Translations under genes and position numbers: made by a program | Source: Tardiphaga robiniae | Lineage (GTDB): Bacteria > Pseudomonadota > Alphaproteobacteria > Rhizobiales > Xanthobacteraceae | Direction: 5' to 3' | NCBI RefSeq assembly: GCF_001618955.1 | Contig: NZ_LVYV01000053.1 | Location: 62,001 to 126,000 of the forward strand | DNA length: 64,000 nucleotides | In this document: one piece after another, positions 19,086-42,066 of the stretch | Numbering within the stretch: position 1 is the stretch's first letter | How the letters are laid out: the number at the start of each line of letters is the position of its first letter | The notes under the pieces: generated by a model | Databases searched by the model: none | What the model was told of the DNA's origin: nothing | What the model saw: only the letters and a program-made list of their open reading frames with translations

Positions 19086-22000
19086 GAACTAGCCTCCTCA
19101 AAGACGCCGTGTTGCGGCTGGCCGTCGACGCGTTTGCGCAACAGCGAAAACAAGTACGGCACGATCAAAAGCGTGGTCGGCGTCGCAAACAGCAATCCGC
19201 CGATCACCGCGCGAGCGAGCGCTGCATTCTGTTCCTCCCCGGCGCTGCCGATCGCCATAGGAATCATGCCGACGATCATCGCCGCAGCGGTCATCAGCAC
19301 CGGCCGGATCCGGGTGTGGCCGGCTCTGATTGCGGCCTCGAACGCAGAATGGCCCGCGAGTTGCTGCTCGCGCGCGAAGGTAACCAACAGGATCGAATTC
19401 GCCGACGCCACGCCGACTGCCATGATCGCGCCCATCATCGACGGCACGTTCAGGGTCGTACCCGTGATGAACAGCATGGTGACGATGCCGGTCAGCGTCG
19501 CAGGTAGCGCCAGCATCACCACGAACGGGTCGCTAAAGTTCTGGTAGTTCACCACCATCAGGAGGTAGACGAACACGGCAGCGAACAGCAAACCGATACC
19601 GAGGTTGACGAAGGCATCGTTCATGCTCTGGATCTGCCCCAGTACGACAATGCTGTTTCCGGGCTTCATCTCCTTCTGCAAATCGGCCGTTACCTTGTTG
19701 ATGTCGGCGGAGATCGCGCCGAGGTCGCGGTCCTGTGCGCTGGCATAGACGTCGTAGACCGGCTGTACATTGGCCTGGTTCAGGTTGGTGGGCAGCGGCT
19801 CGCGCTTGAAGGTCGCGACGTTGCTGAGCATTCCCGGCACCGGCTGGCCGCCGACGGTCAGCGTGCTCGACACCGGCGTATTGCCGTAGGCGTTGAGCGA
19901 ATTGACTCGGTATTCGGGTGTCTGCACGGCGAGATAATAGGGAATTCCAGATGTCGGATCGGTCCAGAAGTTCGGCGACACCTGCGACGAGGAACTCAGG
20001 CTGACATTGATATTCGTCGCAATCGTACTGGCATTGAGTCCCAGCTGCGCCGCGCGGGTGCGGTCGATCTCGGTATAAAATGACGGCGCGTCAGTTTCCT
20101 GCTGAAGATGCGCATCGACAATGCCGGGGATCGCCGCGATGCGCTCCCGTAGCTTCTGCGCGATGGCAAGGTCACCGGGATCGTATCCGACGGTCCGGAC
20201 GTCAATCTGCGCCGGCAGCCCGAAATTCAAAATCTGCGTTACGATATCGGCGGCCTGGAAGTAGAACACCTCTTCAGGGAATGCGGCCGGCAGCACTTCA
20301 CGCAGCTTGCGGACATAATCCGCCGTAGGCTTGTGACCTTCTTTGAGCTCCACCTGGATAATGCCGTCATTGACACCGATGGTTGAGCCGTCGGTAAAGG
20401 CAAGATTATAGGGTCGCGCAGGCAGGCCAATATTGTCGACGATCAGACTGCGCTCGCTCTCCGGAACGATCTGGCGGATCTTGTCCTCCACCTGCTGAAA
20501 GATTTTTTCGGTGGCGTCGATCCGCGTACCGGCGGGGGCACGGACGTGGAGCTGGATCTCGCCGCCGTCGATCAGCGGGAAGAAATCGCGGCCGACTGAG
20601 ACCAGCATGACGCCGCCGAGGCCGATGATCAGCACTGCAGCCACCGGCACGGCGACGCGATTCTTGAGTAACTGGGTCAGCAGCGCAACGTAGCCAGTAC
20701 GCGTCCGCTCGAAGCCGCGCTCGAACGCACTCGACAGCCGCGCGAACAGCCCCTTCGGATGGCCATCGTCTGGGCCGTGCTTTTCGTACCGCAGCAGCAG
20801 CCCGATGGTGATCGGGGTGAGCGTCCGCGACAGGCCGTAGGATGCCAGCATGGCGAATACGACCGCCAGGCCAAGCGGCGTGAACAGATATTTCGCGGGG
20901 CCATCGAGGAACACCACCGAGGTAAAGACGCAACTGATAGCCAGCGTCGAGACCAGCGTCGGGATCGCGATGCCGGCTGCGCCATGCAGGGTCGCGTCCG
21001 GCAGCGCCATGTGCTCCTCGGTCAGCAGCCGATGCGTGTTCTCGATCGTCACCGTGGAATCATCGACCAGAATGCCGACCGCAAGCGCGAGGCCGCCCAG
21101 TGTCATCGTGTTGAGCGTCTCGCCGAGGAAATACAACACGACGAGCGACGACAGGATCGCCAGCGGGATCGAGATCATCACCACAAGCGTTGAGCGCCAT
21201 GATCCCAGGAAGAGCAGGATCATCAGCGCCGTCAGGCCGGCTGCGATCGCACCTTCGTGCAGAACGCCCGTCACCGATGACTTGACGAATACGGACTGAT
21301 CGAACAACTCGTTGATCTTTAACCCGGCGGGCGCTGCTGCCCGCGCCTGTTTAAGCACGTCCTTGACTGCGTTGACCACGGTCAGCGTCGAGGCGTTGCC
21401 GTTCTTGATGATACTCAACAACACCGAACGCCGGCCGTCCTGACGCACGATATTCTGCTGCACTGCCGACCCGTCGCGAACCTGGGCAACGTCTTTCAGA
21501 AAGATCGTCGCGCCGTTGACAAACTTGACCGGGATCATGTTGAGGTCAGCGATGCTGGCCGGTGTTGCGTTTGTACGCATCGTATACTGCTTGTCGCCGA
21601 TCTTGGCCGTTCCGGTCGGCAGCGTCAGGTTCTGAGTGTTGACCGCGTTGACGACATCGAGCGGCGTCAGTCCGCGCGACAGCAGTTTATCAGGATCGAG
21701 ATCAACCATAATCTGGCGATACTTGCCGCCCGCCGGCGTAGGTAGCGTCACGCCATGCACCGGCGCCAGCTGTTGCCGGACCCTGTAGATGCCGAAATCA
21801 TACAACTGCTGTTCGTTCAGCGTATCGGAGTTGAGGCTGAGCTGCAGCACCGGAACGCTGGAGGCATTAAATTGCACCACGATTGGCGGCTGGATGCCAG
21901 GCGGCATCAGCGCACGGATCGCATTTGTAGCCGAAACGATCTGCGAAATTGCGAGGTCGAGATTAACGTCGGGTTGGAAGTAAATCTTCTGAATCGAGAG

Positions 22001-22264
22001 CCCGTTCAGAGTCTGTGCTTCGATATTCTTGATGCCGTTGACGTTGGCGCTGATGGAGTACTGGCTGTAGGTCGAGACCCGATCTTCCATCTCAGGTGTC
22101 GAGAGCCCCGTGTAGCTCCAGATCACCGTTACGACGGGAATTCGGATCTCTGGGAAGATGTCGGTCGGCATCGAACGGATGGCAACACCTCCGAGGAACA
22201 GGATCAGCACCGCCACCACGTAATAGGTATACGGAAATCTCAGTGCAAACCGCACGATGCCCAT
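19082..22264 (-). CDS. RND (HAE1-type) efflux pump, inner-membrane permease
   Basis: 1060 residues, the standard RND length with two copies of TM1-TM2-12. It begins RFALRFPYTYY. The proton-relay segment in TM4 (GILVDDSTVTIENT) keeps the paired aspartates. The porter-domain motif MPTDIFPEI follows TM1. The group resembles the MexF/AcrB-related pumps that have short loops and often act on solvents, antimicrobials or metabolites. It is followed by its adaptor gene and preceded by a small secreted protein gene (72 bp away) that carries the shared promoter box. It might export a product of the nearby polyketide cluster, but that cluster has its own exporter. Confidence 0.9.
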   Translation of the reverse strand: MGIVRFALRFPYTYYVVAVLILFLGGVAIRSMPTDIFPEIRIPVVTVIWSYTGLSTPEMEDRVSTYSQYSISANVNGIKNIEAQTLNGLSIQKIYFQPDVNLDLAISQIVSATNAIRALMPPGIQPPIVVQFNASSVPVLQLSLNSDTLNEQQLYDFGIYRVRQQLAPVHGVTLPTPAGGKYRQIMVDLDPDKLLSRGLTPLDVVNAVNTQNLTLPTGTAKIGDKQYTMRTNATPASIADLNMIPVKFVNGATIFLKDVAQVRDGSAVQQNIVRQDGRRSVLLSIIKNGNASTLTVVNAVKDVLKQARAAAPAGLKINELFDQSVFVKSSVTGVLHEGAIAAGLTALMILLFLGSWRSTLVVMISIPLAILSSLVVLYFLGETLNTMTLGGLALAVGILVDDSTVTIENTHRLLTEEHMALPDATLHGAAGIAIPTLVSTLAISCVFTSVVFLDGPAKYLFTPLGLAVVFAMLASYGLSRTLTPITIGLLLRYEKHGPDDGHPKGLFARLSSAFERGFERTRTGYVALLTQLLKNRVAVPVAAVLIIGLGGVMLVSVGRDFFPLIDGGEIQLHVRAPAGTRIDATEKIFQQVEDKIRQIVPESERSLIVDNIGLPARPYNLAFTDGSTIGVNDGIIQVELKEGHKPTADYVRKLREVLPAAFPEEVFYFQAADIVTQILNFGLPAQIDVRTVGYDPGDLAIAQKLRERIAAIPGIVDAHLQQETDAPSFYTEIDRTRAAQLGLNASTIATNINVSLSSSSQVSPNFWTDPTSGIPYYLAVQTPEYRVNSLNAYGNTPVSSTLTVGGQPVPGMLSNVATFKREPLPTNLNQANVQPVYDVYASAQDRDLGAISADINKVTADLQKEMKPGNSIVVLGQIQSMNDAFVNLGIGLLFAAVFVYLLMVVNYQNFSDPFVVMLALPATLTGIVTMLFITGTTLNVPSMMGAIMAVGVASANSILLVTFAREQQLAGHSAFEAAIRAGHTRIRPVLMTAAAMIVGMIPMAIGSAGEEQNAALARAVIGGLLFATPTTLLIVPYLFSLLRKRVDGQPQHGVFEEASS

Positions 22265-22336: not shown

Positions 22337-22606
22337 TCAGCAGCGGCAGATGTTCAGTGACTTATCGAGTTGTTCGTCGAGCAGATGCTGCCGCGCATCG
22401 AACGTTGAAAGTCGCTGCTGTTCGTCCGCGTTCGCATCTTCGTCTGACAGAAAGCCATTCGGGGTCGGCTGGGCGTGCCCCGCCGGAGCCGGCAGGGGTT
22501 TCGATGCGATGATCGACTCACGAGCCATAGCAGCATTCGGAGCTGCCGCGATGGCGATCAACGCGATGAAGACTGCTGACACTACTGGCGTGAGATTTGG
22601 GTGCAT
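22337..22606 (-). CDS. Small secreted protein, first gene of the RND efflux operon
   Basis: 89 residues from the ATG at 22606. A signal peptide (VVSAVFIALIAIAAAPNAAMA) is followed by a short Pro/Ala/Asp-rich mature region that ends in the pair of cysteines of ICRC. No family is recognised. The gene lies 72 bp upstream of the RND permease on the same strand and about 100 bp downstream of a TTAAAT-type promoter box, so it is probably the leading gene of the operon. Its role is unknown; it could be a small periplasmic modulator of the pump or a stress-induced secreted peptide. Confidence 0.55.
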   Translation of the reverse strand: MHPNLTPVVSAVFIALIAIAAAPNAAMARESIIASKPLPAPAGHAQPTPNGFLSDEDANADEQQRLSTFDARQHLLDEQLDKSLNICRC

Positions 22607-22676
22607 TGGATCATTCCTTCCTTGGCGCCAGACCGGATTGGCGATCCAGCGGCGCGCCATCGTTACGTCTTTGGAA

Positions 22677-22720
22677 GAAATAGTGATGCGATGCCACGGG
22701 CCAACTAAATAACGATTTAG
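22677..22720 (-). promoter_or_regulatory. Shared regulon promoter, copy 1 (RND operon)
   Basis: Read on the minus strand, the 16-bp box CTAAAT-CGTT-ATTTAG (22705-22720) is a perfect inverted repeat. It is followed after exactly 22 bp by TATTTC (22677-22682) as the -10, which lies 70 bp before the start of the small secreted protein gene. The same layout recurs at 25273, 25918, 28628, 28768 and 33969. Confidence 0.6.
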
Positions 22721-22772
22721 GAAACGGTGCGCCGAGCAACGGACAGCGATCTCGCGGCGATGTGATCGCGGT

Positions 22773-24146
22773 CTAAACTTTTATCTCGGAAGCGTCAGGG
22801 AATCCGATTTCGATCACACATCCCTCCCCCGAAAAGATCGTCAACCGAAAGCCGTGCAATTTGGCAATCGTGGCAACAAGAGTAAGGCCAAGCCCAAGAC
22901 CTGGTGTCTTGCGAAACGCATCGGAACGGTAGAACCGCCGCAGCACCGCACTACGCTCATGTTCGCTTATCCCCGCGCCGGTGTCCGTGATGCGCAGGAT
23001 ACTCTCGCCGTCCCCGGACACCGTCGTGATCTGGACCTGCCCACCCCGCGGCGTGAACTTGACGGCGTTATCGACCAGATTGGCGACCGCTTCCATCAGC
23101 AGGTCACGATCTCCCTCCACGATCGGGGCATGAACGATATCGGTGCGCAGCGTGATGCCCTTGTCTTCGGCGATCGGCGCATAGAGATCGCGGACCTCGT
23201 GCAGCAGTTCCTCCAGTGCGACCTTGCCGAACCCGGTGGAGCGACGGCTGTTCTCGATCTCGGCCAGCCTCAGAAGCGCCGCGGCAATCGCTAGCGACTG
23301 GTCCATGCTCGCGATAGCCTTGTCGACCACAGATCGCAGTTCGGGCAGCGTCCTGGCGTTGTTCCGGCCGCGCTCCAGCGCCAGGCGTGCCCGGGTCAAT
23401 GGGGTCCGCAGGTCGTGCGCGATGTCATTGCCGACTCCGGCAATCGCGTGGATCAGCGTTTCGATCTCGTCCAGCATGCTGTTGACCATGCCGGCGAGTT
23501 GAGTGAACGGATCGCGACCGCGATTGACCGGGAGCCGTTCGTGCAGACTGCCCGCCACGATGCGCTGAATGCGCTCATTAACGCCGGAGATCCGACGTTC
23601 GGCGCGCAGACTGAGCAGTGCGCCCAGCGCGAGGCATAGCAGCAGAGCCGGGATCAGACCGAGAGCCAGAGCCTGGCTGACAACCATCAACAGCTGAATC
23701 GCCTCATCGACATAGCGGCCGATCACCAATATCTCGCCGTCCGGCAACTGCTGGCCGATGGCCTGAACGGTTATTTGCTCCGGGCCAGCGGGGCGCTGCC
23801 TTATGATCTCGACAGTCTGCACTGTGGCATCCAGCCGCAGCGTCGCCGGCGGGCGCTCGAGATTGCCGGCGACCCGGCTTCCATCCGCCCGGAACAGGCC
23901 GATGAAATGCACGTCGCGCGAATCCTGGCTGAGTTGAAGATGAAGCGCGTCGAGCCTGCGTTCATTCGGCAATGCCGCCACCGTTTGCAGCTGCAAGGCG
24001 ATGACATGGTCGGAGCGGGTCACTAGCAGGCGGTCGGTCTTCCAATAGATGAAGCCGAACAGGACCAGCACGAACAAAGAAAGCGCGACAGCCGCGACCG
24101 TAGCGGCGCGGAAGGTTGAACTACTCGCAAACTCGGCCAGATTCAT
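22773..24146 (-). CDS. Sensor histidine kinase (first of two paralogues)
   Basis: 457 residues from the ATG at 24146; an ATG at 24218 would add 24 residues that read through a palindromic repeat, and alignment by eye with the second kinase favours 24146. Order: TM1 near the N-terminus, a periplasmic domain of about 120 residues, TM2, HAMP, the phosphoacceptor H-box IAHDLRTPLTR, and the ATPase with VDNAVKFTP (N box) and DTGAGI (G1). It lies 93 bp downstream of the rpoH-like gene and has no adjacent regulator. It is clearly related to the kinase at 25967-27349, so it may phosphorylate the same response regulator. Confidence 0.88.
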   Translation of the reverse strand: MNLAEFASSSTFRAATVAAVALSLFVLVLFGFIYWKTDRLLVTRSDHVIALQLQTVAALPNERRLDALHLQLSQDSRDVHFIGLFRADGSRVAGNLERPPATLRLDATVQTVEIIRQRPAGPEQITVQAIGQQLPDGEILVIGRYVDEAIQLLMVVSQALALGLIPALLLCLALGALLSLRAERRISGVNERIQRIVAGSLHERLPVNRGRDPFTQLAGMVNSMLDEIETLIHAIAGVGNDIAHDLRTPLTRARLALERGRNNARTLPELRSVVDKAIASMDQSLAIAAALLRLAEIENSRRSTGFGKVALEELLHEVRDLYAPIAEDKGITLRTDIVHAPIVEGDRDLLMEAVANLVDNAVKFTPRGGQVQITTVSGDGESILRITDTGAGISEHERSAVLRRFYRSDAFRKTPGLGLGLTLVATIAKLHGFRLTIFSGEGCVIEIGFPDASEIKV

Positions 24147-24189
24147 CGCGTGAGCGGCCCGTGAGGGACATTTGGACCGCCAACATAAC

Positions 24190-24235
24190 GGATTTCCCGC
24201 GCTTGCACGATTCGTCATCGTCCGCCGGAATGACG
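24190..24235. repeat. Degenerate palindromic repeat (solo copy)
   Basis: This gap between the rpoH-like and kinase genes contains GATTTCCCGCG and CCGGAATGACG (24225-24235), the latter matching the ends of the palindromic repeats beside the GIY-YIG gene at 43 kb. It looks like a decayed half copy of that repeat. Confidence 0.4.
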
Positions 24236-24239
24236 CAAT

Positions 24240-25193
24240 TCAATGCGTTGCCAGCGCCGGGGCGCGGGTGTGACGTAGATCGTGCGAAAGCTTGCGCGCC
24301 GCCGACTGCACCTTCTCGAACGCCCGCTGCTCGATCTGGCGGATCCGCTCGCGCGACAGCCCATAGTGCTGCGCGAGGTCTTCGAGCGTATCCGGCTCGT
24401 CGGCGAGATAACGCGCCTCGAAGATGTGCCGCTCGCGCGCATTGAGTACGTCGATCGCGCGCACCAGAACCTGACGTCGATGATCGATTTCGTCCTGCTC
24501 GACCGCGATCAGCTCTGGTGTGGGCGCCTGGTCGATCAGATAGTCCTGCCACTCGGTGGCGCCCTCGTCATCGTGCACCAGCGCGTTGAGCGAAGCATCA
24601 CCGCCGAGCCGACGGTTCATGTCGACGACGTCCTTCTCGGGCACGCCCAGATCGGTGGCTATCAGGGTCACCTGGTCGGGCCGCAAGTCGCCGCCTCCCA
24701 ATGCCGAAATCCTGCTCTTGGCCGAACGTAGCTTGAAGAACAATTTCTTCTGACTCGCGGTGGTGCCGATCTTCACCAGCGACCATGAGCGCAGGATGTA
24801 GTCCTGGATCGCCGCACGGATCCACCACACCGCGTAGGTGGAGAAGCGGAATCCCTTGTCCGGGTCGAACCCGTCAAGGGCCTGCATCAGGCCGAGATTG
24901 GCCTCCGACGTGATCTCCGACAGCGGCAGGCCGTAACCACGATAGTTCATGGCCATCTTGGCGGCGAGGCGCAAGTGGCTGGTGACAAGTTGCTCGGCTG
25001 CAGTACGGTCACCATGATCGCGCCAGCGTATCGCCAACACGTATTCCTGCTCGCGCTCGAGCATCGCAAAACGCCGGATGTCGGTTCGGTAATTCAGGGC
25101 GGTGCCGGCTGCCGCGGGCGACCGCAGCCCGATCCGAGTCGCCAGACCAGACGCCGGTGTGGAATACTCCGTCGACGTTCCATCGGTATTCAT
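24240..25193 (-). CDS. rpoH: RNA polymerase sigma-32 (RpoH-family) sigma factor
   Basis: 317 residues from the ATG at 25193 (GGAGGGG, 5 nt spacing); in-frame codons upstream lie in the promoter. Region 2 shows NLGLMQALDGFDPDKGFRFSTYAVWWIRAAI, with the WWIRA core that reads the -10. An RpoH-box-like QKKLFFKLR follows; the canonical form has Asn where this has Lys. Region 4 ends with LSRERIRQIEQRAFEK. It is a little longer than typical RpoH (about 285-300), with an N-terminal extension. Rhizobia and relatives carry several RpoH paralogues for heat, oxidative and pH stress. Its own start is preceded by a regulon box at 25301-25316. Confidence 0.88.
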   Translation of the reverse strand: MNTDGTSTEYSTPASGLATRIGLRSPAAAGTALNYRTDIRRFAMLEREQEYVLAIRWRDHGDRTAAEQLVTSHLRLAAKMAMNYRGYGLPLSEITSEANLGLMQALDGFDPDKGFRFSTYAVWWIRAAIQDYILRSWSLVKIGTTASQKKLFFKLRSAKSRISALGGGDLRPDQVTLIATDLGVPEKDVVDMNRRLGGDASLNALVHDDEGATEWQDYLIDQAPTPELIAVEQDEIDHRRQVLVRAIDVLNARERHIFEARYLADEPDTLEDLAQHYGLSRERIRQIEQRAFEKVQSAARKLSHDLRHTRAPALATH

Positions 25194-25272
25194 GTCAGCC
25201 CCTCCGCTATGATTGATCTGTTGCTGATCGATGTCCGGGGCCGATGTCACGGCCTTTGCGGACGATCCTGAA

Positions 25273-25316
25273 AAGATAGCGGCGGCGATCACGGGAACCA
25301 TTAAATTACAGGTTAA
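25273..25316 (-). promoter_or_regulatory. Shared regulon promoter, copy 2 (rpoH-like and kinase)
   Basis: Minus strand: box TTAACC-TGTA-ATTTAA (25301-25316), then 22 bp, then TATCTT (25273-25278). The -10 is 79 bp before the rpoH-like ATG. One half-site is perfect, the other has two changes. Confidence 0.6.
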
Positions 25317-25351
25317 GGATATAAATTCGAATTCAGGTTCGGCTTGCAGCA

Positions 25352-25395
25352 CGAACAAAGCCGGCGTGACGTGGCTTCCGCAACGTCACGCCGGC
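25352..25395 (-). terminator. Rho-independent terminator after the glycine-rich gene
   Basis: A perfect 13-bp inverted repeat, arms 25360-25372 and 25383-25395 (GCCGGCGTGACGT and complement), with a 10-nt loop. On the minus strand it is followed by TTTGTTCG. It lies 21 bp beyond the stop of the glycine-rich protein gene and separates it from the rpoH-like promoter. Confidence 0.75.
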
Positions 25396-25416
25396 GATGC
25401 CTTGCAGGACGGTTCG

Positions 25417-25842
25417 TCAGCTGCAGCCGGCGACCCAGGGATAATGGTTGGGATGCAGCGGGCCGTAAACATACGGACAGCCGTAGCCGTAGTCATCGTA
25501 GTAGCCCGGGAAGCCGAAGCCACGGCCGGTATGTCTGACGAGGTGATGTCCGGCAAAGGTGTGCGATCCGAATCCGCCTCCTCCGAAACGCTGGCCGCCT
25601 ATTCCACCTACATGACCGGCGGCGATGCCGCCTGCCATATGGCCACCGCCGACACCGGGTCCGAAGCCGCCCATGTGACCACCACCGAAGCCGCCGCCAA
25701 AGCCGCCCATATGGCCGCCACCGCCGCCGAAACCACCACCGTGGCCTCCACCACCACCGCCGCCGCCCGCATCAGCGGCGGTAGCCAGCAGACTCAATGC
25801 CAGCGCAGCCGTTGCGAATACCTTGAATGTACGTCCTTTCAT
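25417..25842 (-). CDS. Secreted Gly/His/Met-rich protein
   Basis: 141 residues from the ATG at 25842; codons upstream in frame are discarded. A signal peptide (KVFATAALALSLLATAADA) is followed by a Gly tract with repeated GGGHMGGF-type units, several GH and HM pairs, and an aromatic C-terminal part with GYYDDYGYGCPYVYG and a final Cys. The His and Met spacing would suit binding of copper or another soft metal, but no known metal-binding family is matched. It is a single-gene unit, with the shared promoter box upstream and a strong terminator downstream. Confidence 0.65.
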   Translation of the reverse strand: MKGRTFKVFATAALALSLLATAADAGGGGGGGGHGGGFGGGGGHMGGFGGGFGGGHMGGFGPGVGGGHMAGGIAAGHVGGIGGQRFGGGGFGSHTFAGHHLVRHTGRGFGFPGYYDDYGYGCPYVYGPLHPNHYPWVAGCS

Positions 25843-25917
25843 GATCTCATCCTTTCCATCGATGCCGCTGTTGCCGTGAACATCCATCCGGCGTCTAGGC
25901 AACAGCGCGATCTACGA

Positions 25918-25961
25918 AACATGGTGAGCGGGTACGGCGAGGCGATTAAAATGCGCTTTAG
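25918..25961 (-). promoter_or_regulatory. Shared regulon promoter, copy 3 (Gly/His/Met-rich protein)
   Basis: Minus strand: box CTAAAG-CGCA-TTTTAA (25946-25961), 22 bp, then CATGTT (25918-25923). It lies 75 bp before the start codon. The box has one mismatch in each half, the -10 matches TATCTT at four of six bases. Confidence 0.5.
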
Positions 25962-25966
25962 ACAAA

Positions 25967-27349
25967 TCACCTTTCCGGCAATGGACAGGCGATCTCCGCG
26001 ACGCAGCCGGGACCGGTCGACAACGTCAGCCGGAAGCCGTGCAGCTTGACGATCGCGGAAACCAGGCTGAGGCCAAGACCAGTGCCGACGGTCCTGCGGC
26101 TCTTGTCGGAGCGATAGAACCGCCGCAGCACCGCTTCGCGCTCGTCTTCTCCAATGCCCGGACCGGTGTCCGATATTCTGATAATGACATCGCTGGGCCC
26201 TCGCACGAGCGCCAGCCGGACGCATCCGTGGGGCGGCGTGAACTTGACCGCGTTATCGACCAGGTTGATGACGGCCTCCTGCAGCAGATCGCGGTCGCAT
26301 CGGACAATGGCATCGTCGTCGACATCGACGCGTAGGCTGACCTGCTTGTCTTCAGCGATCGGTTCGTAGAGGTCGCAGGCCTCATGCAGCAAACCCGCCA
26401 GCACCACATCGCCGAACCCCCTGCGGTCACCATAATGTTCGATCTCCTGGATACGCAGCAGGCTGGTGATAATGGTGAGCACTTCGTCAACGCCAGCGAT
26501 CGCGCGGTCGGCGACCGCCTGCAGGTCCGCGACCGTCGTGGCATTGGCGCGGCCGCGCTCAAGGCCGACGCGGACACGGGTCAGCGGCGTGCGCAGATCA
26601 TGCGCGATCTCGTTGCCGGTCCCCGCCATTTCGGTGACCAACACCTCGATCTCGTCGAGCATACCGTTGGCGATGATCGCCAGCTTGTCGAAAGGGTGGT
26701 CGAGGTTGGCCGTGGGAAGTCGCTCGCGCAGGTCAGCATCAATGATACGCCTGACCTGCGCATGGAGTTCATCGACACGACGCTGCACCCGCAGGCTGAG
26801 CACGCCACCGATCGCCAGGCTGAGGGCGCCCGCCACCGGCAGACCGAGCAGCAGGGCGCGGCCGATCGCTGCCGCCAGTTCCTTGAGTTCACCGCTATGG
26901 CGGGCGATGACCAACACTTGGCCGTCGGGCAAGCGGCGACCGATGGCGCGCACGGACATCGACTCCGGTTTGCGCGGATCGATCCTGACCACCTGCGTCG
27001 CATGAATCCGAGCGTCGATCGCCAATTGCGGCGGGATATCGCGCAGATTGCCGGCGATCCGTTTTCCGTCGGCGGTAAACAGACCGGCCAACCGGGTCCG
27101 ACGCGGATCGGCCGCCAGGCGGTCCTCGATGGCGATGACCCTGCGCTCCGGCACGTCCGAAGCGATCGCCTGGCTCGCCTCCGCGATCGAAGCGTCCATG
27201 TCGGCCCGCATCGAACTGCCAGCCTCCCAGTACACGAAGGCTGAAAACAAAAGAATGCAGAGCGCAATCGCAATGGACGTCCACCGGAACGTCGTCGTGC
27301 GGACGAAATCAGGAAGGCGCACGAAGAATAAATCCTGCGCCGCGAACAT
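25967..27349 (-). CDS. Sensor histidine kinase (second paralogue), partner of the adjacent response regulator
   Basis: 460 residues. TM1 near 22-40 (SIAIALCILLFSAFVYW), a periplasmic domain of about 120 residues, TM2, HAMP, H-box IAHDLRTPLTR, N box VDNAVKFTP and G1 DTGPGIG. Its 5' end overlaps the response-regulator gene by 41 bp, so the pair is co-transcribed and probably translationally coupled. It shares the periplasmic motifs LxLxxDxRDxxxxGLF-like and LPDGxVLVIxR with the kinase at 22.8-24.1 kb, which marks the two as a duplication. The periplasmic signal is unknown. Confidence 0.9.
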   Translation of the reverse strand: MFAAQDLFFVRLPDFVRTTTFRWTSIAIALCILLFSAFVYWEAGSSMRADMDASIAEASQAIASDVPERRVIAIEDRLAADPRRTRLAGLFTADGKRIAGNLRDIPPQLAIDARIHATQVVRIDPRKPESMSVRAIGRRLPDGQVLVIARHSGELKELAAAIGRALLLGLPVAGALSLAIGGVLSLRVQRRVDELHAQVRRIIDADLRERLPTANLDHPFDKLAIIANGMLDEIEVLVTEMAGTGNEIAHDLRTPLTRVRVGLERGRANATTVADLQAVADRAIAGVDEVLTIITSLLRIQEIEHYGDRRGFGDVVLAGLLHEACDLYEPIAEDKQVSLRVDVDDDAIVRCDRDLLQEAVINLVDNAVKFTPPHGCVRLALVRGPSDVIIRISDTGPGIGEDEREAVLRRFYRSDKSRRTVGTGLGLSLVSAIVKLHGFRLTLSTGPGCVAEIACPLPER

Positions 27350-27986
27350 TATGGATCATCGGCGGATCGCCCGGCGTGTCCACCTTGTGCCGCAACCGCC
27401 CCATATGGACATCGACAAGATTAGTGTCTGGGACGAATTTATAGTTCCAGACCTCCTCCAGCAACATCGCCCGCGTCAGCAGCTGCTCGTTACGCTGCAT
27501 CATGTATTCGAGAAGGCGGAATTCCCGCGGCAGCAATTCGATCTCCCGCTCGCCACGCCGCGCGGTGCGTTCGATCAGGTCGAGTTCGAGCGGTCCCACC
27601 CGCAACATGGTTTCCCGCGTTTCGATTGGACGGCGCAACAGGGCCTCGATCCTCGCCACCAGTTCGACGATCGCAAAAGGCTTGGTCAGATAGTCATCAC
27701 CGCCCATACGTAATCCGCGGACGCGATCATCGACCGCTCCAAGCGCGCTCAGGATCAGCACGGGCGTGCGAATCTGGTCATGCCGCAGCGCCTCGACGAT
27801 GGTGAGTCCGTCCATTCCCGGTAACATGCGATCGACGATCATCAAGTCCGGCTTGATGAAGCGGGCCTTGTCGAGTCCCTCGATGCCGCTCGCGGCATGT
27901 TCGACCTCGAAGCCGCGCTGCGTCAGTTCGGCCACGAGTTCCTCGGCGGTCTCACTGTCGTCCTCGATCAGCAGAATCTTGGTCAT
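27309..27986 (-). CDS. OmpR/PhoB-family response regulator
   Basis: 225 residues from the ATG at 27986 (MTKILLIEDDSE); codons upstream in frame are noncoding. Receiver domain: acidic pocket E8/D9/D10, phosphorylation site D52 (MIVDRMLPG), and the conserved Lys in YLTKPF. The C-terminal winged helix (about 130-225) has the RNEQLLTRAMLLEEVWNYKF and VDVHMGRLRHKVD segments typical of the family. It lies 95 bp after a DUF305-like gene on the same strand. It is the natural candidate to bind the TTAAAT boxes that head the operons around it, since OmpR-type regulators bind paired half-sites just upstream of promoters (inference). Confidence 0.9.
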   Translation of the reverse strand: MTKILLIEDDSETAEELVAELTQRGFEVEHAASGIEGLDKARFIKPDLMIVDRMLPGMDGLTIVEALRHDQIRTPVLILSALGAVDDRVRGLRMGGDDYLTKPFAIVELVARIEALLRRPIETRETMLRVGPLELDLIERTARRGEREIELLPREFRLLEYMMQRNEQLLTRAMLLEEVWNYKFVPDTNLVDVHMGRLRHKVDTPGDPPMIHNVRGAGFILRAPS

Positions 27987-28081
27987 CTGGAGTATCTCGG
28001 GCACCGTTTGATCTGAAGACACGATAAGGTGCGCACCCGCCGTAGCGTAACGGAAAACGTCGCCATTTTGCCGAAACTCGG

Positions 28082-28549
28082 TCATTTCGTCCATCCGGTG
28101 GGCCCAAACCTCGCCGTTGCGACAGGTACCGAAGATCCCGGGATCGCGTACGGCATTGCTCCGGCATCTGCATGTCGTGTCGCCATTATCTGCCGGGCCA
28201 AGCGGCGGAGCTTTTCCTCGTGCCCGTAGCACAGCACGGCCTGCGCCATGTCGATTACGTCCGGCCCTCGCGATACCAGTTCCGCAAACACATCCTGATC
28301 CCCGTCCGCCATCGGCCGGAGATTGATATCAGCGACCATCTTGTCGGACGCAGAACAGCTGTTGAGAGCGAGCGAACTCGCTCCAATGAAAACGGCCGCG
28401 GTGGCCGGGCGACGCTCAATCGCTGCCGGTTGAAACGGCGGCGACTTGTGCGGCGGACGCGCCACCGCAAATGCGGTTGCGGCAAGCAACAGCGATCCCC
28501 CTAGCGAGATCGCACATTGTCGAACGAACGACGTCAGAATTCCAAGCAT
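28082..28549 (-). CDS. Exported DUF305-like protein
   Basis: 155 residues, ATG at 28549 with AGGTGG 4 nt upstream. The N-terminal hydrophobic stretch (SLGGSLLLAATAFAVA) suggests export or membrane anchoring. The C-terminal half fits the DUF305 ferritin-like pattern: VIDMAQAVLCYGHEEKLRRLARQIM, but the usual paired histidines before this segment (MxxHH) are replaced by SRGPD, so metal binding may be lost. It starts 107 bp from a regulon box and lies just upstream of the response regulator and kinase, so it is probably the first gene of that operon. Confidence 0.6.
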   Translation of the reverse strand: MLGILTSFVRQCAISLGGSLLLAATAFAVARPPHKSPPFQPAAIERRPATAAVFIGASSLALNSCSASDKMVADINLRPMADGDQDVFAELVSRGPDVIDMAQAVLCYGHEEKLRRLARQIMATRHADAGAMPYAIPGSSVPVATARFGPTGWTK

Positions 28550-28627
28550 CGACCCACCTGCGGACGGCCCTTACTGATGCAGCAGCCATCGGAACGCGCC
28601 CAGCCGGACGGCGGACCAATGGCCACA

Positions 28628-28671
28628 ACATCTTCGAAAGGCTTGTGTTCTTCAATTAAATACGAATTTAA
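28628..28671 (-). promoter_or_regulatory. Shared regulon promoter, copy 4 (DUF305-like, response regulator, kinase)
   Basis: Minus strand: perfect palindrome TTAAAT-TCGT-ATTTAA (28656-28671). The -10 is less clear: AGATGT after 22 bp, or GATGTT after 23 bp. The distance from box to start codon (106 bp) matches the other copies. Confidence 0.5.
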
Positions 28672-28767
28672 CTTGCGACGCAGCGACGTCCCATGCGCAA
28701 CGATTGCCGGCCAGACACCTGTCATCGACACCCCCGGCAGCGGCCGAAGCAGAGCGTCGGCCGATTC

Positions 28768-28811
28768 TTAAATCGCAATTTAATCGCTCCGCGGACTTTC
28801 TTCGCTATCTC
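28768..28811 (+). promoter_or_regulatory. Shared regulon promoter, copy 5 (type III PKS cluster)
   Basis: Plus strand: perfect palindrome TTAAAT-CGCA-ATTTAA (28768-28783), 22 bp, then TATCTC (28806-28811). The predicted transcript starts about 45 nt before the TTG start codon. Confidence 0.65.
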
Positions 28812-28862
28812 GACCTTCATCGGCCGGCGCTCGTTTCGGCGGAGGCATACGGAGGGACTCCC

Positions 28863-29939
28863 TTGCCAGTAGTTTATATCAATCGTGTCGCAACGGCTGT
28901 GCCGCCTTACGACGTTCATGATGCCTTTCGCCGCTTCGCACAGTCGACGCTCCATCTGGCCAGCCCCCGTCAGGCGCGGCTGTTCGAACGCATGGCCGAC
29001 AAGTCCGGTATCGAGCACCGCTTCTCGTGCCTTACGCCGAGCAACCGGCCGGAAGGCGACCATTTCGATGCCGGCGGCTTCTATGCCCGTAGTGATTTTC
29101 CCGATACGGCGACGCGGATGGAGCAATATGAGCGACACGCGCCCGAACTGGCGCAAGCCGCCGTCGATCGCCTGCATCTCGGAGCGGATCGTGACCGCAT
29201 CACACACCTGATCGTCACCAGTTGCACAGGCTTCTCCGCGCCCGGCCTCGACCTCGATCTCATCGCGCGTTGCGAGCTTCCGACGACGGTCGAACGCACC
29301 GTGATCGGCTTCATGGGCTGCTACGCCGCCATCAACGCGCTGAAGCTGGCCTATCACATCGTCCGCTCCGAGGCGGCGGCGCGCGTACTGGTCGTCAACC
29401 TCGAACTCTGTACGCTGCATCTCAAGGAAACCGCCGATCTCGAACAGATGCTCTCGTTCCTGCTGTTCGCCGACGGTTGCGCGGCAAGCCTTGTGAGCGC
29501 CGAGCCGTCCGGCATCGCGCTCGACAGCTTCCACGCAATGCTGGTCCCCGATACCCGTGAATTGATCACGTGGAACATCCGCGACGCCGGATTCGACATG
29601 GTGTTGTCGGGACGCGTTCCGGCCGTCATCCAGGATGGCCTGCGGCAAAGCGGCGAGCGAATCCTCGCCGGCGCGCCCGCCACGTCAATTGACCTGTGGG
29701 CGGTGCATCCCGGCGGCCGGACCGTTCTCGACGCGGTGGAGCGAGCTTTTGCTCTCGCGCCGACGGCGCTGGCGGCGTCGCGCGACGTGCTGCGCCGTTA
29801 TGGCAATATGTCGTCGGCCACGGTCATGTTCGTAATCGAGAAGCTGATGCGCTCGCGCGCGCGTGGCCGCAGCGGATGCGCGATGTCGTTCGGCCCCGGA
29901 GTGGTCGCGGAAACCATGCTGTTCCGGACTGGGGCGTGA
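28863..29939 (+). CDS. Type III polyketide synthase (chalcone/stilbene synthase family)
   Basis: 358 residues from the TTG at 28863, which has GGAGGG 6 nt upstream; the length then matches the family (about 350-390). The Cys-His-Asn catalytic triad is present: C153 (GFMGCYAA), H282 (WAVHPGG) and N315 (RYGNMSSAT), with the SFGPG loop near 342-346. Such enzymes extend an acyl-CoA starter with malonyl-CoA and cyclise it to pyrones, resorcinols or phloroglucinols. The next three genes (methyltransferase, flavoprotein, exporter) follow with 4-bp overlaps or less. The starter unit and product cannot be predicted from the sequence. Confidence 0.92.
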   Translation: MPVVYINRVATAVPPYDVHDAFRRFAQSTLHLASPRQARLFERMADKSGIEHRFSCLTPSNRPEGDHFDAGGFYARSDFPDTATRMEQYERHAPELAQAAVDRLHLGADRDRITHLIVTSCTGFSAPGLDLDLIARCELPTTVERTVIGFMGCYAAINALKLAYHIVRSEAAARVLVVNLELCTLHLKETADLEQMLSFLLFADGCAASLVSAEPSGIALDSFHAMLVPDTRELITWNIRDAGFDMVLSGRVPAVIQDGLRQSGERILAGAPATSIDLWAVHPGGRTVLDAVERAFALAPTALAASRDVLRRYGNMSSATVMFVIEKLMRSRARGRSGCAMSFGPGVVAETMLFRTGA

Positions 29940-29943
29940 CACC

Positions 29944-30681
29944 ATGAGCACATTCAGTACCACCCACGCTGTAGCAACGGACCTGTCGCAGCGGAGCACC
30001 GAAGCCGAATGGCTGGACAGTGCCGATGCAAGTCCGGAAGAGCTCGAACTTGTGCTGCGCGACCTCGCCCGCTTTAACGGCGCGATGCTCGGGCACCGGG
30101 CGGTGATCGCCTGGCTGGACGCCGCCATCCAGCGGATACCTGAAGGTACCGAGCTCACGCTCGTCGATGTCGGTTGCGGCTATGGCGACCTGCTGCGGGC
30201 GATCCGCAGCTGGGCCGCCGGGCGCGGCCGGCAGATCAAGCTGATCGGGCTCGATCTCAATCGCGAGACGGTCCGCATCGCGCAGTCGGCGACAGGAAAC
30301 GATCTCAACATCGAATATCAGGTGATGGACATCTTCGACTTCATCCCGCCCTTCCCCATCGACTTCGTCGTCAGCAGCCTGCTCACGCATCATATGTCCG
30401 ACAAGATGATCGTGACGTTCCTGCGCTGGATGGAGGGGACCGCGCAGCGTGGCTGGATGATCTATGACCTGCAGCGCCACCGGGTGCCGTTCCATTTCAT
30501 CGGCCTGATGGGTTGGCTGACGCGGCTGCATCCCATTGTCATTCACGATGGCCGGATCTCGGTTGCGAGAGCCCTCACCCGCGCCGAATGGACGGCACGG
30601 TTACGCGATGCCGGGATTGCGCCGCGCGCGGTGCGCCTGCGGTGGTTCCTGTTCCGTTTCGTGATTGGACGCGTGCGATGA
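29944..30681 (+). CDS. SAM-dependent methyltransferase of the PKS cluster
   Basis: 245 residues from the ATG at 29944, four bases after the PKS stop. SAM motif I is VDVGCGYGD near residue 75, followed by GLDLN (motif II acidic residue) and the VMDIFDF segment. The C-terminal third (GLMGWLTRLHP...VARALTRAEWTARL) is typical of class I methyltransferases found beside bacterial type III PKS genes. It probably O- or C-methylates the aromatic polyketide. The stop overlaps the next start as ATGA. Confidence 0.85.
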   Translation: MSTFSTTHAVATDLSQRSTEAEWLDSADASPEELELVLRDLARFNGAMLGHRAVIAWLDAAIQRIPEGTELTLVDVGCGYGDLLRAIRSWAAGRGRQIKLIGLDLNRETVRIAQSATGNDLNIEYQVMDIFDFIPPFPIDFVVSSLLTHHMSDKMIVTFLRWMEGTAQRGWMIYDLQRHRVPFHFIGLMGWLTRLHPIVIHDGRISVARALTRAEWTARLRDAGIAPRAVRLRWFLFRFVIGRVR

Positions 30682-31826
30682 TCCGGGTCGAGACGATCGT
30701 CATCGGCGGCGGGCCGGCCGGCAGCGCGGTAGCCTGCGGTCTGGCCGGTCATGGCCATGACGTCATGCTGATCGAGCGCACGGCCACCTCCCAGCATAAA
30801 GTGTGTGGCGAATTCCTCAGCGTCGAGACACAGCTGCTGCTACGGCGGCTGGGCGTCGATCCGCTGGCGCTCGGCGCCGTGCCGGTCGATGAGGTGGCAT
30901 TGTATTCCTCGCGCCGCAGCGTGACCTCGGCACTACCGTTTCGCGGGCTGTCGCTGTCGCGCTATCGACTCGACGCCGCGCTGCTGCGACACGCGCATTT
31001 CAGCGGCGCACGCCTGCATCGCGACGTGACGGTGAAAACGGCGAGACCGGATGGATCCGGCTGGCTGGTCGTGTGCGACAACGGCCACACAGTCAGTTGC
31101 CGGAACCTCGTATTAGCCACCGGCAAGCTGGGTCTGCGCGGCATCGACGACACGCGCGACGGCTCGCAGGTCGGTTTGAAAATGCACCTGCGGCCTGCCC
31201 CCGACATTCGCCGAGCGCTCGAGGGCCGGGTCGAGCTTTACTTTCTGGAGGCCAGCTATATCGGCCTCGAACTGGTCGAAGACGGTATCGCCAACCTCTG
31301 CATGGTGCTGCCGGGTGAAACCATGAGCCAGTTAGGATCCGGTTGGCCCGCGCTACGCAACCATGTGGCGGCGGCGCTTCCCGCACTGGCGGAGCGGCTG
31401 GCAGACGCCGAGCCGCTGTGGGACAAGCCGAAGGCCGTGGTCTGTCCCAGCGGCGGGCATCTTCATCGCGAGCGAAACGCTGCGGCCTATCGGGTCGGCG
31501 ACCGTCTCGCCCATATCCCACCCTTCACCGGTGATGGCGTTGCCATCGCCCTTGGATCGGCCGCGCTGGCGGTCGCGCATATCCGGGAGGGCCTTTCACC
31601 TGATGTCTATCTGGCAGCCGCGCGAAAACTCACGGCCGGTCCGATCCGACTGGCGAGCATCGTCTCCTGCCTTGCTGGCCATCGCATCAGCCGAAACCTG
31701 ATGTTCGCCGCGGCCACGCGCGGCCCGGGCCTGATCGGCTCGATCGTCCGCCGCACCCGACTGACCCGCGCGCTGGATGGCCTTGACCCTGCCGTGCTGC
31801 CTACCCCGCCGCTCGTGAGCCCATGA
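30678..31826 (+). CDS. FAD-dependent oxidoreductase (geranylgeranyl reductase/hydroxylase family) of the PKS cluster
   Basis: 382 residues from the ATG at 30678, which overlaps the methyltransferase stop. N-terminal FAD motif IGGGPAGSAVA at 9-19, then the HKVCGEFLS segment typical of geranylgeranyl-reductase-like flavoproteins, and a later AYRVGDRLAHIPPFTGDGVAIAL region that binds FAD ribityl. In such clusters this enzyme hydroxylates or reduces the polyketide product. It overlaps the MFS gene start by 4 bp, so the whole cluster is one operon. Confidence 0.85.
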   Translation: MIRVETIVIGGGPAGSAVACGLAGHGHDVMLIERTATSQHKVCGEFLSVETQLLLRRLGVDPLALGAVPVDEVALYSSRRSVTSALPFRGLSLSRYRLDAALLRHAHFSGARLHRDVTVKTARPDGSGWLVVCDNGHTVSCRNLVLATGKLGLRGIDDTRDGSQVGLKMHLRPAPDIRRALEGRVELYFLEASYIGLELVEDGIANLCMVLPGETMSQLGSGWPALRNHVAAALPALAERLADAEPLWDKPKAVVCPSGGHLHRERNAAAYRVGDRLAHIPPFTGDGVAIALGSAALAVAHIREGLSPDVYLAAARKLTAGPIRLASIVSCLAGHRISRNLMFAAATRGPGLIGSIVRRTRLTRALDGLDPAVLPTPPLVSP

Positions 31827-33361
31827 CGACCCTGCGCACCGAACTGCCCCTCGCGGACACCCGGACATGGCTCGGCTTTGTCCTGATGTGTCTTGGGATG
31901 TTCATGGCGATCCTCGACATTCAGGTCGTCGCAACATCGCTGCCGACCATTCAGAATGCCCTCGCCATCTCCCCGGAGACGATGAGCTGGGTCCAGACCT
32001 CCTATTTGATTGCCGAGATCATAGCCATTCCCCTGACGGGCTGGTTGACGCATGTGCTCTCAATGCGCTGGCTGTTTGCCGCCGCCCTCGCGCTATTCAC
32101 GCTGGCGTCGATCGGCTGCGCCGCGAGCGGCACCTTCGCCGCCCTCGTGTCGTTTCGTGTGCTGCAGGGATTCGCGGGCGGCACGCTCATCCCGGCGGTG
32201 TTCGCCGCGGTCTTCCTGCTGTTCCCGCCGCGCAGCCAAGGTATTGCCACGACGATCGCCGGCATTGTGGCGGTGCTGGCGCCGACGGTCGGACCTGTGG
32301 TCGGCGGCTGGATCACGCAGACCTGGTCCTGGCACTGGCTGTTCCTGATCAATGTCGTTCCCGGGCTGATCGCTTGCGTTGTGGCGCCTCCTCTGCTGCC
32401 CCGGCAGCAGCTGAACTTTGGCGACCTTGCGGAAATCGATTGGCGGTCGCTGGTTCTGATGGCGATGTCGCTGGCCACTCTGGAGATCGGACTGAAGCAA
32501 TCCCCCCATGATGGCTGGGTGTCGGTCACCTGCACGGGCCTGTTCACAATCAGCGCGCTCTGCGGCGGCCTGTTCGTCCGACGCACATTGCGCGCTGCCC
32601 ATCCGGTCGTCCAGCTTGGCCCGTTCCGAAACCGCTCATTCGCGATCGGATGCGCGTTGAGCTTTTGCCTGGGCGTGGGCCTGTACGGCTCGGTCTATCT
32701 CATCCCGGTTTTTCTGGCTTACGTCAGGGGTCACGACGCCCTGCAGATTGGTTCGACGATGCTGGTGACCGGCGCCGCGCAACTGGCGATGTCGCCCATC
32801 GCCGTCGCGCTGGAACGGCGACTCAATGCGCGCTGGCTGACCGCCGCAGGTTTTGCGGTGTTTGGTATCGGACTCGCCCTCAGCATGTTTCAGACACGCG
32901 ACACCGATTTCAACCAGATGTTCTGGCCACAGGTCGTTCGCGGCGTCGCCATCATGTTCTGCCTATTGCCGCCGACCCGCCTGGCGTTGGGTTCGCTGCC
33001 GGAAGCGCAGGTGCCGACAGCGAGCGGCCTGTTCAATCTGATGCGCAATCTGGGCGGCGCGATCGGCATCGCGCTGATTGACACCATCCTATACACCCGC
33101 GCTCACATCTACGCCGCTGCGTTGCATATGCGGTTGTTATCGGGAGACCCCACGGCGGCAACGGCCATTGGCCTCGATCCCGCATTGCTGACAAGCGGTC
33201 TCTCCGGCCCACCCACTCCTGCCATGGAAGCCCTGGTCCAGCCCATGATCGAAAAGACAGCCTTTGTCTGGAGTGTGAACGACGCTTGGGCAATGCTCGC
33301 AGCAACAGCGCTGCTTGCTGTGCTGCTGGTACCATTCGCATGGGTCGGGCGCGAACGGTAG
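31823..33361 (+). CDS. DHA2-family (EmrB/QacA) MFS drug/metabolite exporter
   Basis: 512 residues with about 14 hydrophobic segments, the DHA2 size. Motif MAILDIQVVATSLPTIQ in TM1, the WVQTSYLIAEIIAIPLTGWL segment of TM2 and RVLQGFAGGTLIPAV in TM4 match EmrB. It is the last gene of the PKS operon (ATGA overlap) and probably exports the product, giving self-protection or delivery to the surroundings. No EmrA-type adaptor is beside it. Confidence 0.9.
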   Translation: MTTLRTELPLADTRTWLGFVLMCLGMFMAILDIQVVATSLPTIQNALAISPETMSWVQTSYLIAEIIAIPLTGWLTHVLSMRWLFAAALALFTLASIGCAASGTFAALVSFRVLQGFAGGTLIPAVFAAVFLLFPPRSQGIATTIAGIVAVLAPTVGPVVGGWITQTWSWHWLFLINVVPGLIACVVAPPLLPRQQLNFGDLAEIDWRSLVLMAMSLATLEIGLKQSPHDGWVSVTCTGLFTISALCGGLFVRRTLRAAHPVVQLGPFRNRSFAIGCALSFCLGVGLYGSVYLIPVFLAYVRGHDALQIGSTMLVTGAAQLAMSPIAVALERRLNARWLTAAGFAVFGIGLALSMFQTRDTDFNQMFWPQVVRGVAIMFCLLPPTRLALGSLPEAQVPTASGLFNLMRNLGGAIGIALIDTILYTRAHIYAAALHMRLLSGDPTAATAIGLDPALLTSGLSGPPTPAMEALVQPMIEKTAFVWSVNDAWAMLAATALLAVLLVPFAWVGRER

Positions 33362-33496
33362 TTCGGTCCGGGCGAGTGGCGCTGCCGCCGCCATCTCGAA
33401 AAGCGATAGACGTGTTACGGCATCTCCCTTTCAAGATGATCTCGTTTTCCGCACAAGAGATTATTATCGACCGGGCCGTGCCGCTCGCAAAGGCGC

Positions 33497-33799
33497 TCAG
33501 TACCGGGCACGCCACCCGTCAGGCGTCCGCTCATAACTACCGCGGAAATCGATGTTCTCCACGCAGTTGGCGTGCATGTCGGCCGCGGCCTGCAGACATT
33601 CCTGATAATCATAGTAGCCGCAGATCTGCGGTGCTCCCCCTGGACCATTGGATGAGCCCGGCAACAGACAGAACGGCGACGCGTCACGGTGCAGTGGCGT
33701 AGCTTCGGCGGGTTGCGGTCTCAGCGCTGCAAACGAAAGCGCGACGGCAACGGCAAAAGCCGCAGTGAGATACCTGGGTTGTCGATCGAAAATCATCAT
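33497..33799 (-). CDS. DUF3551 family secreted small protein
   Basis: 100 residues. Signal peptide (LTAAFAVAVALSFAALRPQPAEA) followed by the DUF3551 pattern: FCLLPGSSNG, CGYYDYQECLQAAADMHANC, and a short tail. Four cysteines in the mature part may form two disulfides. The family is common in Bradyrhizobium-type genomes and its function is not known. A GGAGATGG site precedes the ATG. It converges on the exporter gene and is preceded, at 33969-34012, by the shared promoter box. Confidence 0.7.
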   Translation of the reverse strand: MMIFDRQPRYLTAAFAVAVALSFAALRPQPAEATPLHRDASPFCLLPGSSNGPGGAPQICGYYDYQECLQAAADMHANCVENIDFRGSYERTPDGWRARY

Positions 33800-33968
33800 C
33801 CATCTCCATCTGCTGTGAACCTCAAAGCGTGCCGCTCGCGGTCCCGCAGTCGCATCGATCGGGAAATCGCGATTGCAAAGCCTGCAAGATGGGCAGCCGA
33901 GGGCTACGTTTCCGAGATCATCGTGCGCTGGAAATTCAAGATTTTCTTCGCACAGGTCTCATACCGAA

Positions 33969-34012
33969 GAGATAGGAAACTCTATGTATTTCCCGAATAA
34001 ATACGTGTTTAA
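33969..34012 (-). promoter_or_regulatory. Shared regulon promoter, copy 6 (DUF3551 protein)
   Basis: Minus strand: box TTAAAC-ACGT-ATTTAT (33997-34012), 22 bp, then TATCTC (33969-33974). The leader to the DUF3551 ATG is about 170 nt, longer than at the other copies. The flank shares AAGTTAAA..CGTATTTA with the copy at 28656. Confidence 0.55.
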
Positions 34013-41737: not shown

Positions 41738-42066
41738 GTCGGCGGCAAGAGGCCAGCAACCTTGCCCGAAACCGATGTAAATTCGTCACAGACAAGAGAT
41801 TTGCTAGAATGTCGCATCCCGAGGCCATTTCGGGGCGACGGCACGAATCACTCTCAACGCTCTGATAATAAATAATAATTTATGAATTTCAGGACCAAGC
41901 CGGGTGCTTCAATCGCGCCGGATCACGTCTTATCACTGCCTTGTGATCGACTATTTGGAACGGAACGACCCAACACCACGTTTCCTATGCGTGATGAGTT
42001 GAACCTGCCGACGCGGACACGACACAAACGGTCGTAGGCAGAGTAAGACGGCAGGGAGCGTTTCCA
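41738..42066. other. Intergenic region downstream of flhA
   Basis: 329 bp without a gene. It has an AT-rich run around 41862-41890 containing the palindrome ATAAAT-AATA-ATTTAT. No terminator is evident after flhA. The last 200 bp presumably carry the promoter of the next small gene. Confidence 0.4.

Follow-up and report, generated by a model that had tools for sequence, protein, structure and literature searches.

Operators of the PhoB, KdpE and PmrA type lie at or next to the -35 element, keep a fixed distance to the -10 element and work in one direction. The rag locus of Bradyrhizobium japonicum has the order ragA-ragB-rpoH1-ragC-ragD. In the same species a pump of the resistance-nodulation-division (RND) and membrane fusion protein (MFP) type is cotranscribed with an rpoH gene, according to a passage of PMC3973600 that cites Krummenacher and Narberhaus (2000). 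Here we describe a 64-kb stretch of Tardiphaga robiniae DNA (contig NZ_LVYV01000053.1, positions 62,001 to 126,000; hereafter the window), in which six copies of a 16-bp promoter box accompany the gene for an OmpR-family response regulator (27309..27986, minus strand). From sequence comparison, the six boxes are very probably the binding sites of this one two-component regulator, and we consider it highly likely that they form an operator through which it would activate its own operon and five further transcription units.

Box geometry in the window and the source genome

All six boxes listed in a preliminary description of the window were found at 22705, 25301, 25946, 28656, 28768 and 33997, each facing a gene, and the -10 hexamers and box-to--10 distances given there (22 bp in five copies and 23 bp at 28656) agree with ours. 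Box 1 (22705..22720, minus strand; TATTTC at 22677-22682) heads the genes for a small secreted protein and the RND pump, box 2 (25301..25316, minus; TATCTT at 25273-25278) heads rpoH and sensor kinase 2, and box 3 (25946..25961, minus; CATGTT at 25918-25923) heads a gene for a Gly/His/Met-rich secreted protein. Box 4 (28656..28671, minus), with the weak -10 GATGTT at 28627-28632, stands before the genes for a DUF305-like protein, the regulator and kinase 1. Box 5 (28768..28783, plus; TATCTC at 28806-28811) heads a type III polyketide synthase operon, and box 6 (33997..34012, minus; TATCTC at 33969-33974) a gene for a DUF3551 protein. Gene order points to six transcription units behind the boxes. 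The start codon lies 80-108 bp from the box in five units and 198 bp from it for the DUF3551 gene, where 79-107 and 197 bp had been reported. The box ends in TCG or TTG in place of TGG in five of the six copies.

The pattern TTAAAT-N4-ATTTAA, allowed up to two mismatches, matched six times in the window against 0.11 matches expected, and none of 100 shuffles reached six. Five of these matches are reported boxes; the copy at 25946 was missed, carrying three mismatches. A match at 41868 was tried as a seventh member and rejected, having a matrix score of 13.2 and no -10 at the expected distance. The stretch 41868-41883 is a perfect AT palindrome, ATAAATAATAATTTAT, and is probably unrelated to the boxes.

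We scanned the source genome (6,360,215 bases in 56 contigs) by pattern. Box plus -10, with up to three mismatches, matched at five places, all of them reported boxes (one match for the reversed-pattern control); the copy at 28656 was missed because its -10 is weak and shifted. The box alone, YTAAAN5ATTTANTNG, matched exactly at four places, again all reported boxes, and with up to one mismatch at 11 places, comprising the six reported boxes and five sites elsewhere (five matches for the reversed control). A genome scan showing the motif at random positions had been named as a refutation of the regulon; the scans speak for the regulon instead, the box with its -10 being confined to the reported boxes. 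The regulon therefore appears local in the source genome at these pattern cut-offs, with weaker sites possible elsewhere.

The box before orthologous regulators and other genes in relatives

Of 391 genomes of the family, 54 encode a match to the regulator at E<=1e-85, the source included and the others 66-98% identical; in a closer look at 150 relatives, the next-best regulators were at or under about 59% identity. A scan of named genomes yielded 80 loci, 57 of them with a regulator at 68-98% identity, and 55 of these 57 are labelled Bradyrhizobium. An unsupervised motif search was run on up to 450 bp upstream of 56 regulator genes with no window sequence used. It left out 24 of the 80 loci: 23 where the regulator is 41-54% identical, and the locus of Bradyrhizobium sp. 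NFR13 (L133), which with its 98% identical regulator stood too near the window. The top motif, TAAAATGCTATTTAATGG(C/T), has a site scoring at least 19 in 54 of the 56 upstream regions (best scores in the other two, 8.3 and -4.2), and in all 39 sites used the -10-proximal TGG is on one side only. The box and its promoter design thus precede the regulator in dozens of related bacteria, as an operator conserved in the regulator's own promoter among orthologues, with box 4 as the window counterpart.

A matrix was built from 32 distinct sites with the window excluded. Under this independent matrix the reported boxes are the top six window sites, in the reported orientation (box 5, 26.6; box 2, 25.3; box 4, 23.6; box 1, ranked fourth, 22.0; box 3, 18.0; box 6, 17.3), with the next window site at 13.2 and the best of 20 shuffled windows at 15.8. 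The first description of the box as TTAAAT-N4-ATTTAA is right about the sites; as a plain palindrome it was rejected, since reverse readings score at most 11.8 against 17.3-26.6 forward and the site is directional. A degenerate tandem copy (25318..25336, minus strand) lies 20 bp upstream of box 2, scoring 13.8 with a matrix made from the window boxes and 8.1 with the independent one, and box pairs with the same 20-bp spacing are also found before rpoH at three Bradyrhizobium loci (L139, L140 and L193). This second, degenerate box in the rpoH promoter suggests an array of half-sites.

We scanned the 57 loci (up to 20 kb each) with the independent matrix at a site cut-off of 17, obtaining 170 sites, of which 5 are in L133 and 116, in 38 loci, lie outside the regulator promoter. 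The genes headed by these sites include homologues of RpoH, the RND permease, the DUF305 protein, the small secreted protein and kinase 1, in agreement with the earlier suggestion to look for the motif before orthologues of the window genes; Gly/His-rich secreted proteins, recognised by eye, also stand behind boxes in other loci. Ten further box-headed proteins were compared with Pfam (one without a Pfam family) and seven with NCBIfam. These further genes include those for an oxalate decarboxylase family bicupin, a CusB-like adaptor, a cupin, a ferritin-like (Dps-type) protein, a di-haem peroxidase-like protein and an aldo/keto reductase. A small open reading frame separates one box from a CyoA-type gene about 400 bp away. 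The bicupins (TIGR03404 above cut-off) are directly behind boxes at L140:12174-13478 and L117:197-1450.

The -10 element recurs with the box. Among 53 distinct stretches, picked by a pattern requiring most core letters and the TGG, the core and TGG are invariant by construction because the pattern demanded them. The -10 columns lie outside that pattern and so are independent of site choice, and there C-T-A-n-n-T stands at one fixed distance downstream (T in 51, A in 50 and T in 49). For a count of spacing the 170 sites were reduced to 104 by dropping the 5 L133 sites and near-identical sequences. Of 34 distinct regulator promoters, 32 have TANNT at 22-23 bp, with four matches at all 28 other distances between 8 and 37 bp, which repeats the constant -10 spacing that had been called hard to explain by chance; 23 bp is the usual distance in these orthologous promoters (30 of 34). 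Among 70 distinct other promoters the element is at 22-23 bp in 27, with eight matches elsewhere. With the -10 placed at -12 to -7, the 16-bp box covers about -50 to -35, and a T-N-G is found where a -35 would begin. This position and the fixed distance fit an OmpR-family activator in a class II-like position.

Box and regulator also occur together. The strict pattern YTAAAN5ATTTARTGG has 44 matches in 19 of the 54 regulator-bearing genomes and none in 26 comparison genomes, all from one genus, that lack a regulator match at E<=1e-85 (Fisher p 1.6e-4, an optimistic value because the genomes are related), and the reversed control gave one match in the 80 genomes. A pattern search with up to two mismatches in the 150 relatives returned mostly chance-looking matches in AT-rich genomes of other families, and displayed the boxes of relatives G004 and G011.

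A contrast is seen for rpoH. None of 20 rpoH genes placed directly behind the regulator and kinase has a box at the cut-off, and all 18 placed elsewhere do (p 3e-11, relatedness uncorrected). By pairwise identity, on which the rpoH and kinase assignments are based, the source sigma factor shares about 47-54% identity with the operon type and 61-70% with the type in L139, L140, L160 and G011. In G011, a same-genus relative, many box-like sites are spread over about 75 kb around the regulator (G011:C1:6848001-6887000 and 6902001-6922000; L069, L070, L076), and two of them precede homologues of rpoH and of the small secreted protein; this genome possibly holds a much enlarged version of the regulon.

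Proposed action of the boxes and rival explanations

It had been proposed that the regulator at 27309-27986 acts through the boxes on its own operon, the pump, the sigma factor and the secondary metabolite. The genome scans, the 54 of 56 orthologous promoters, the co-occurrence with the strict motif and the box-headed target homologues support this reading. The activated regulator would bind the directional box (YTRAAnnGCnATTTAATGG in relatives), centred near -42, and, once bound, would substitute for a proper -35, recruiting RNA polymerase to the CTAnnT-like -10 at 22-23 bp. Its own operon would be switched on together with the RND pump, the RpoH and second kinase, the Gly/His/Met-rich, the DUF3551 and the polyketide units, and the signal would most likely be envelope or metal/redox stress. 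What the sequences show are the boxes, their constant geometry, their restriction to this cluster at the cut-offs applied and their co-occurrence with the regulator gene; that the regulator binds directly, that it activates and does not repress, and what signal it answers to, we infer.

Repression by the same regulator at the same boxes is improbable. A site overlapping the -35 region could block polymerase. Indirect evidence speaks against repression: nothing like TTGACA can be made out at -35, the -10s are themselves weak, and a fixed distance of 22-23 bp is what an activator touching the polymerase needs. Another transcription factor, of symmetric-site, FNR/CRP or LysR type, might bind the box, its gene travelling with the cluster. 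The TAAA-N6-TTTA core does have inverted symmetry, and a box centred near -42 would fit a dimeric activator of class II. We nevertheless judge this quite improbable, given that the site is upstream of the regulator's own gene in nearly every case (54 of 56), that a homologue of the window LysR gene was found at only 3 of 57 loci in a survey covering part of the DNA-binding proteins around the regulator, and that the TGG is one-sided.

A sigma regulon, in which box and -10 together are promoters of the RpoH-type sigma factor of the cluster, is very improbable. The cluster does contain an rpoH gene, and its CCTATNT -10 is similar to the rhizobial RpoH -10 elements quoted in PMC4843759; the conserved block, at about -50 to -32, lacks the CTTG -35 quoted there. 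An rpoH homologue was found close to the regulator at 39 of the 57 loci, yet 54 of the 56 regions upstream of the regulator contain the box, and B. japonicum has three rpoH copies (PMC4843759), yet the strict pattern is absent from the 26 regulator-less genomes, whose rpoH genes were left uncounted. Chance or AT-rich background has negligible probability: an AT palindrome of the same form without a promoter does exist at 41868, but genome confinement, strict-motif co-occurrence, the unsupervised motif, matrix ranking, the rpoH contrast and TANNT spacing all contradict it.

Several observations weigh against activation by the OmpR-family regulator through a single operator. The copy at 28656, which heads the operon of the regulator itself, is followed by a poor -10, and 43 of the 70 distinct non-regulator boxes are without TANNT at 22-23 bp, some of which may be chance boxes. 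Inverted symmetry (0.62) and a direct repeat of 11 bp are both partly present in the core, whose column similarity peaks at offset 11 (0.49) among offsets 8-13; with this mixed symmetry a two-half-site OmpR binding mode is plausible, not proved. In a control of 381 kb around 22 of the 23 paralogue loci (L191 left out), the best site scores 19.2. Of 560 random 700-bp stretches drawn from the loci scanned for targets, 32 hold a site of at least 17, some of these presumably real boxes. Two operon-type rpoH genes out of the 20 do carry a site at the usual place, scoring 15.8 and 15.3 and so falling just short of the cut-off. The contrast for pumps is weaker than for rpoH, with a box at 3 of 23 pumps beside rpoH and 8 of 16 detached ones (p 0.015). 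Of the eight detached pumps without their own site, those of L135, L136, L149 and L169 are behind a box-bearing DUF305 gene, and no box was seen for those of L147, L151, L154 and L160. The strict pattern misses 35 of the 54 regulator-bearing genomes, the source included. Finally, many of the compared genomes are close relatives, and the counts therefore overstate the number of independent events.

Gene content and comparison with described systems

The regulator has matches above cut-off for a receiver domain (PF00072, 89.2 bits) and a winged-helix Trans_reg_C domain (PF00486, 84.7 bits), resembles PDB chains of KdpE and PmrA/BasR in sequence, and is taken to be an orthologue of RagA of Bradyrhizobium. 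Its operon begins with the secreted DUF305/CopM-like protein (28082..28549, minus), a weak assignment at 16.5 bits for DUF305 (cut-off 27) and 33.7 bits for the CopM metallochaperone model NF049983, whose curated cut-off of 90 is not reached. Sensor histidine kinase 1 (25967..27349, minus) directly follows the regulator, with HATPase_c above and HisKA just below cut-off and cztS_silS_copS as its best NCBIfam match, below cut-off. The cluster thus has one regulator and two related kinases, which are 48-49% identical in cross-matches to the NFR13 cluster. By sequence comparison, the usual kinase behind the regulator in relatives resembles kinase 2 (22773..24146, minus) more than the regulator-adjacent kinase 1.

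Kinase 2 shares its unit with the RpoH (sigma-32) family sigma factor (24240..25193, minus; TIGR02392, 331.4 bits, cut-off 323.1). The Gly/His/Met-rich secreted protein (25417..25842, minus) has no Pfam family, with similar-looking proteins, by eye, behind boxes in other loci. The pump unit runs from the small secreted protein (22337..22612, minus; no Pfam family, homologues behind boxes in L133, L135, L136, L150, L162 and L169) through the RND permease (19082..22264, minus; RND_permease_2, 517.7 bits, under the 1250 cut-off) and the periplasmic adaptor (17832..19085, minus; TIGR01730, 210.5 bits, cut-off 94.9) to a Thr/Pro-rich secreted protein (17164..17811, minus; no Pfam family, homologues beside the pump or regulator elsewhere). 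Homologues 80-85% identical to the permease are near the regulator in most compared loci. Box 6 heads the DUF3551 secreted protein (33497..33799, minus; PF12071, 31.5 bits, cut-off 26.5).

The polyketide operon, on the plus strand, encodes a type III polyketide synthase (28863..29939) with chalcone/stilbene synthase domains above cut-off (PF00195, 70.1 bits; PF02797, 87.2 bits), a methyltransferase-like protein (29944..30681; best NCBIfam PRK06202, below cut-off), a geranylgeranyl-reductase-like oxidoreductase dependent on flavin adenine dinucleotide (FAD) (30678..31826; QhpG and GG-red-SF, below cut-off) and a DHA2-family MFS exporter (31823..33361; TIGR00711, 379.6 bits, cut-off 230.2). Synthase homologues (E<=1e-90) occur in 12 of the 391 genomes, source included, and among these 12 loci a box precedes the operon only in the source and in its nearest relative G004, whose gene cluster matches that of NFR13. 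At the other ten loci, of about 4 kb each, no site reaches a score of 10, and in five of them a 25-31% identical kinase is beside the synthase. Box control of the polyketide operon therefore looks lineage-specific, and the earlier idea that the secondary metabolite is switched together with the rest would hold here and in G004 but not at the ten other loci. At one locus in another genus (L237, G019:C27), the genes for a synthase homologue and a 57% identical OmpR-family regulator (1498-2556 and 3209-3880) are neighbours in divergent orientation, without this box.

We tentatively propose, at somewhat short of an even chance, that the box is a portable promoter cassette in a two-tier circuit: genes leaving an ancestral regulator-kinase-rpoH-pump operon would keep or regain the box, and lineages would recruit new operons into the same stress circuit as these gain it, the polyketide operon being a recent capture. 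If so, an envelope/metal two-component system would command its own heat-shock-type sigma factor and a polyketide. Apart from this proposal, the boxes give a concrete and testable operator and target list for a system found beside rpoH and an RND pump in many Bradyrhizobium. The rpoH genes, without a box at the cut-off inside the operon and always boxed outside it, offer a natural experiment on operon break-up with co-regulation kept, and the polyketide operon provides a case of an apparent addition to a stress regulon.

Among described systems the rag locus is close: the window cluster holds a regulator, kinase, RpoH, RND permease and adaptor of the same families, and in 20 of 56 relatives rpoH directly follows the kinase, then the pump, in contiguous order. 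The label "uncharacterised" in the preliminary description is therefore probably not wholly apt for the core of the regulon. Unlike that locus, the window has its genes distributed over several units, every one headed by a box, has two kinases, and adds the polyketide operon and small secreted proteins; the single-operon order with an operon-type rpoH is not found here, the rpoH being nearer another type. The open-licence PMC literature searched, a scope with most subscription journals outside it, held no description of the operator, nor of ragA, ragB or ragC in Bradyrhizobium, and rpoH1 and rag are absent from the available part of the main text of a B. japonicum differential RNA sequencing paper (PMC4842269).

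The cluster also resembles the CzcRS/SilRS/CopRS/CusRS heavy-metal systems, which provide the best NCBIfam matches of the regulator and both kinases, with an RND pump and the DUF305/CopM-like protein nearby. It differs in that the regulator reaches 215.3 against 279.2 bits (TIGR01387, CzcR/SilR/CopR) and the kinases 163 and 155.4 against 292.55, all below cut-off, and in that the pump permease fits multidrug models better than the metal model, again all below cut-off. A metal signal is therefore only a lead. Compared with the operators of PhoB, KdpE and PmrA type, the box differs in its sequence and mixed symmetry. The system is of an ordinary kind, OmpR-family and autoregulated, and shares with those operators a box near the -35, a fixed distance to the -10 and a single direction.

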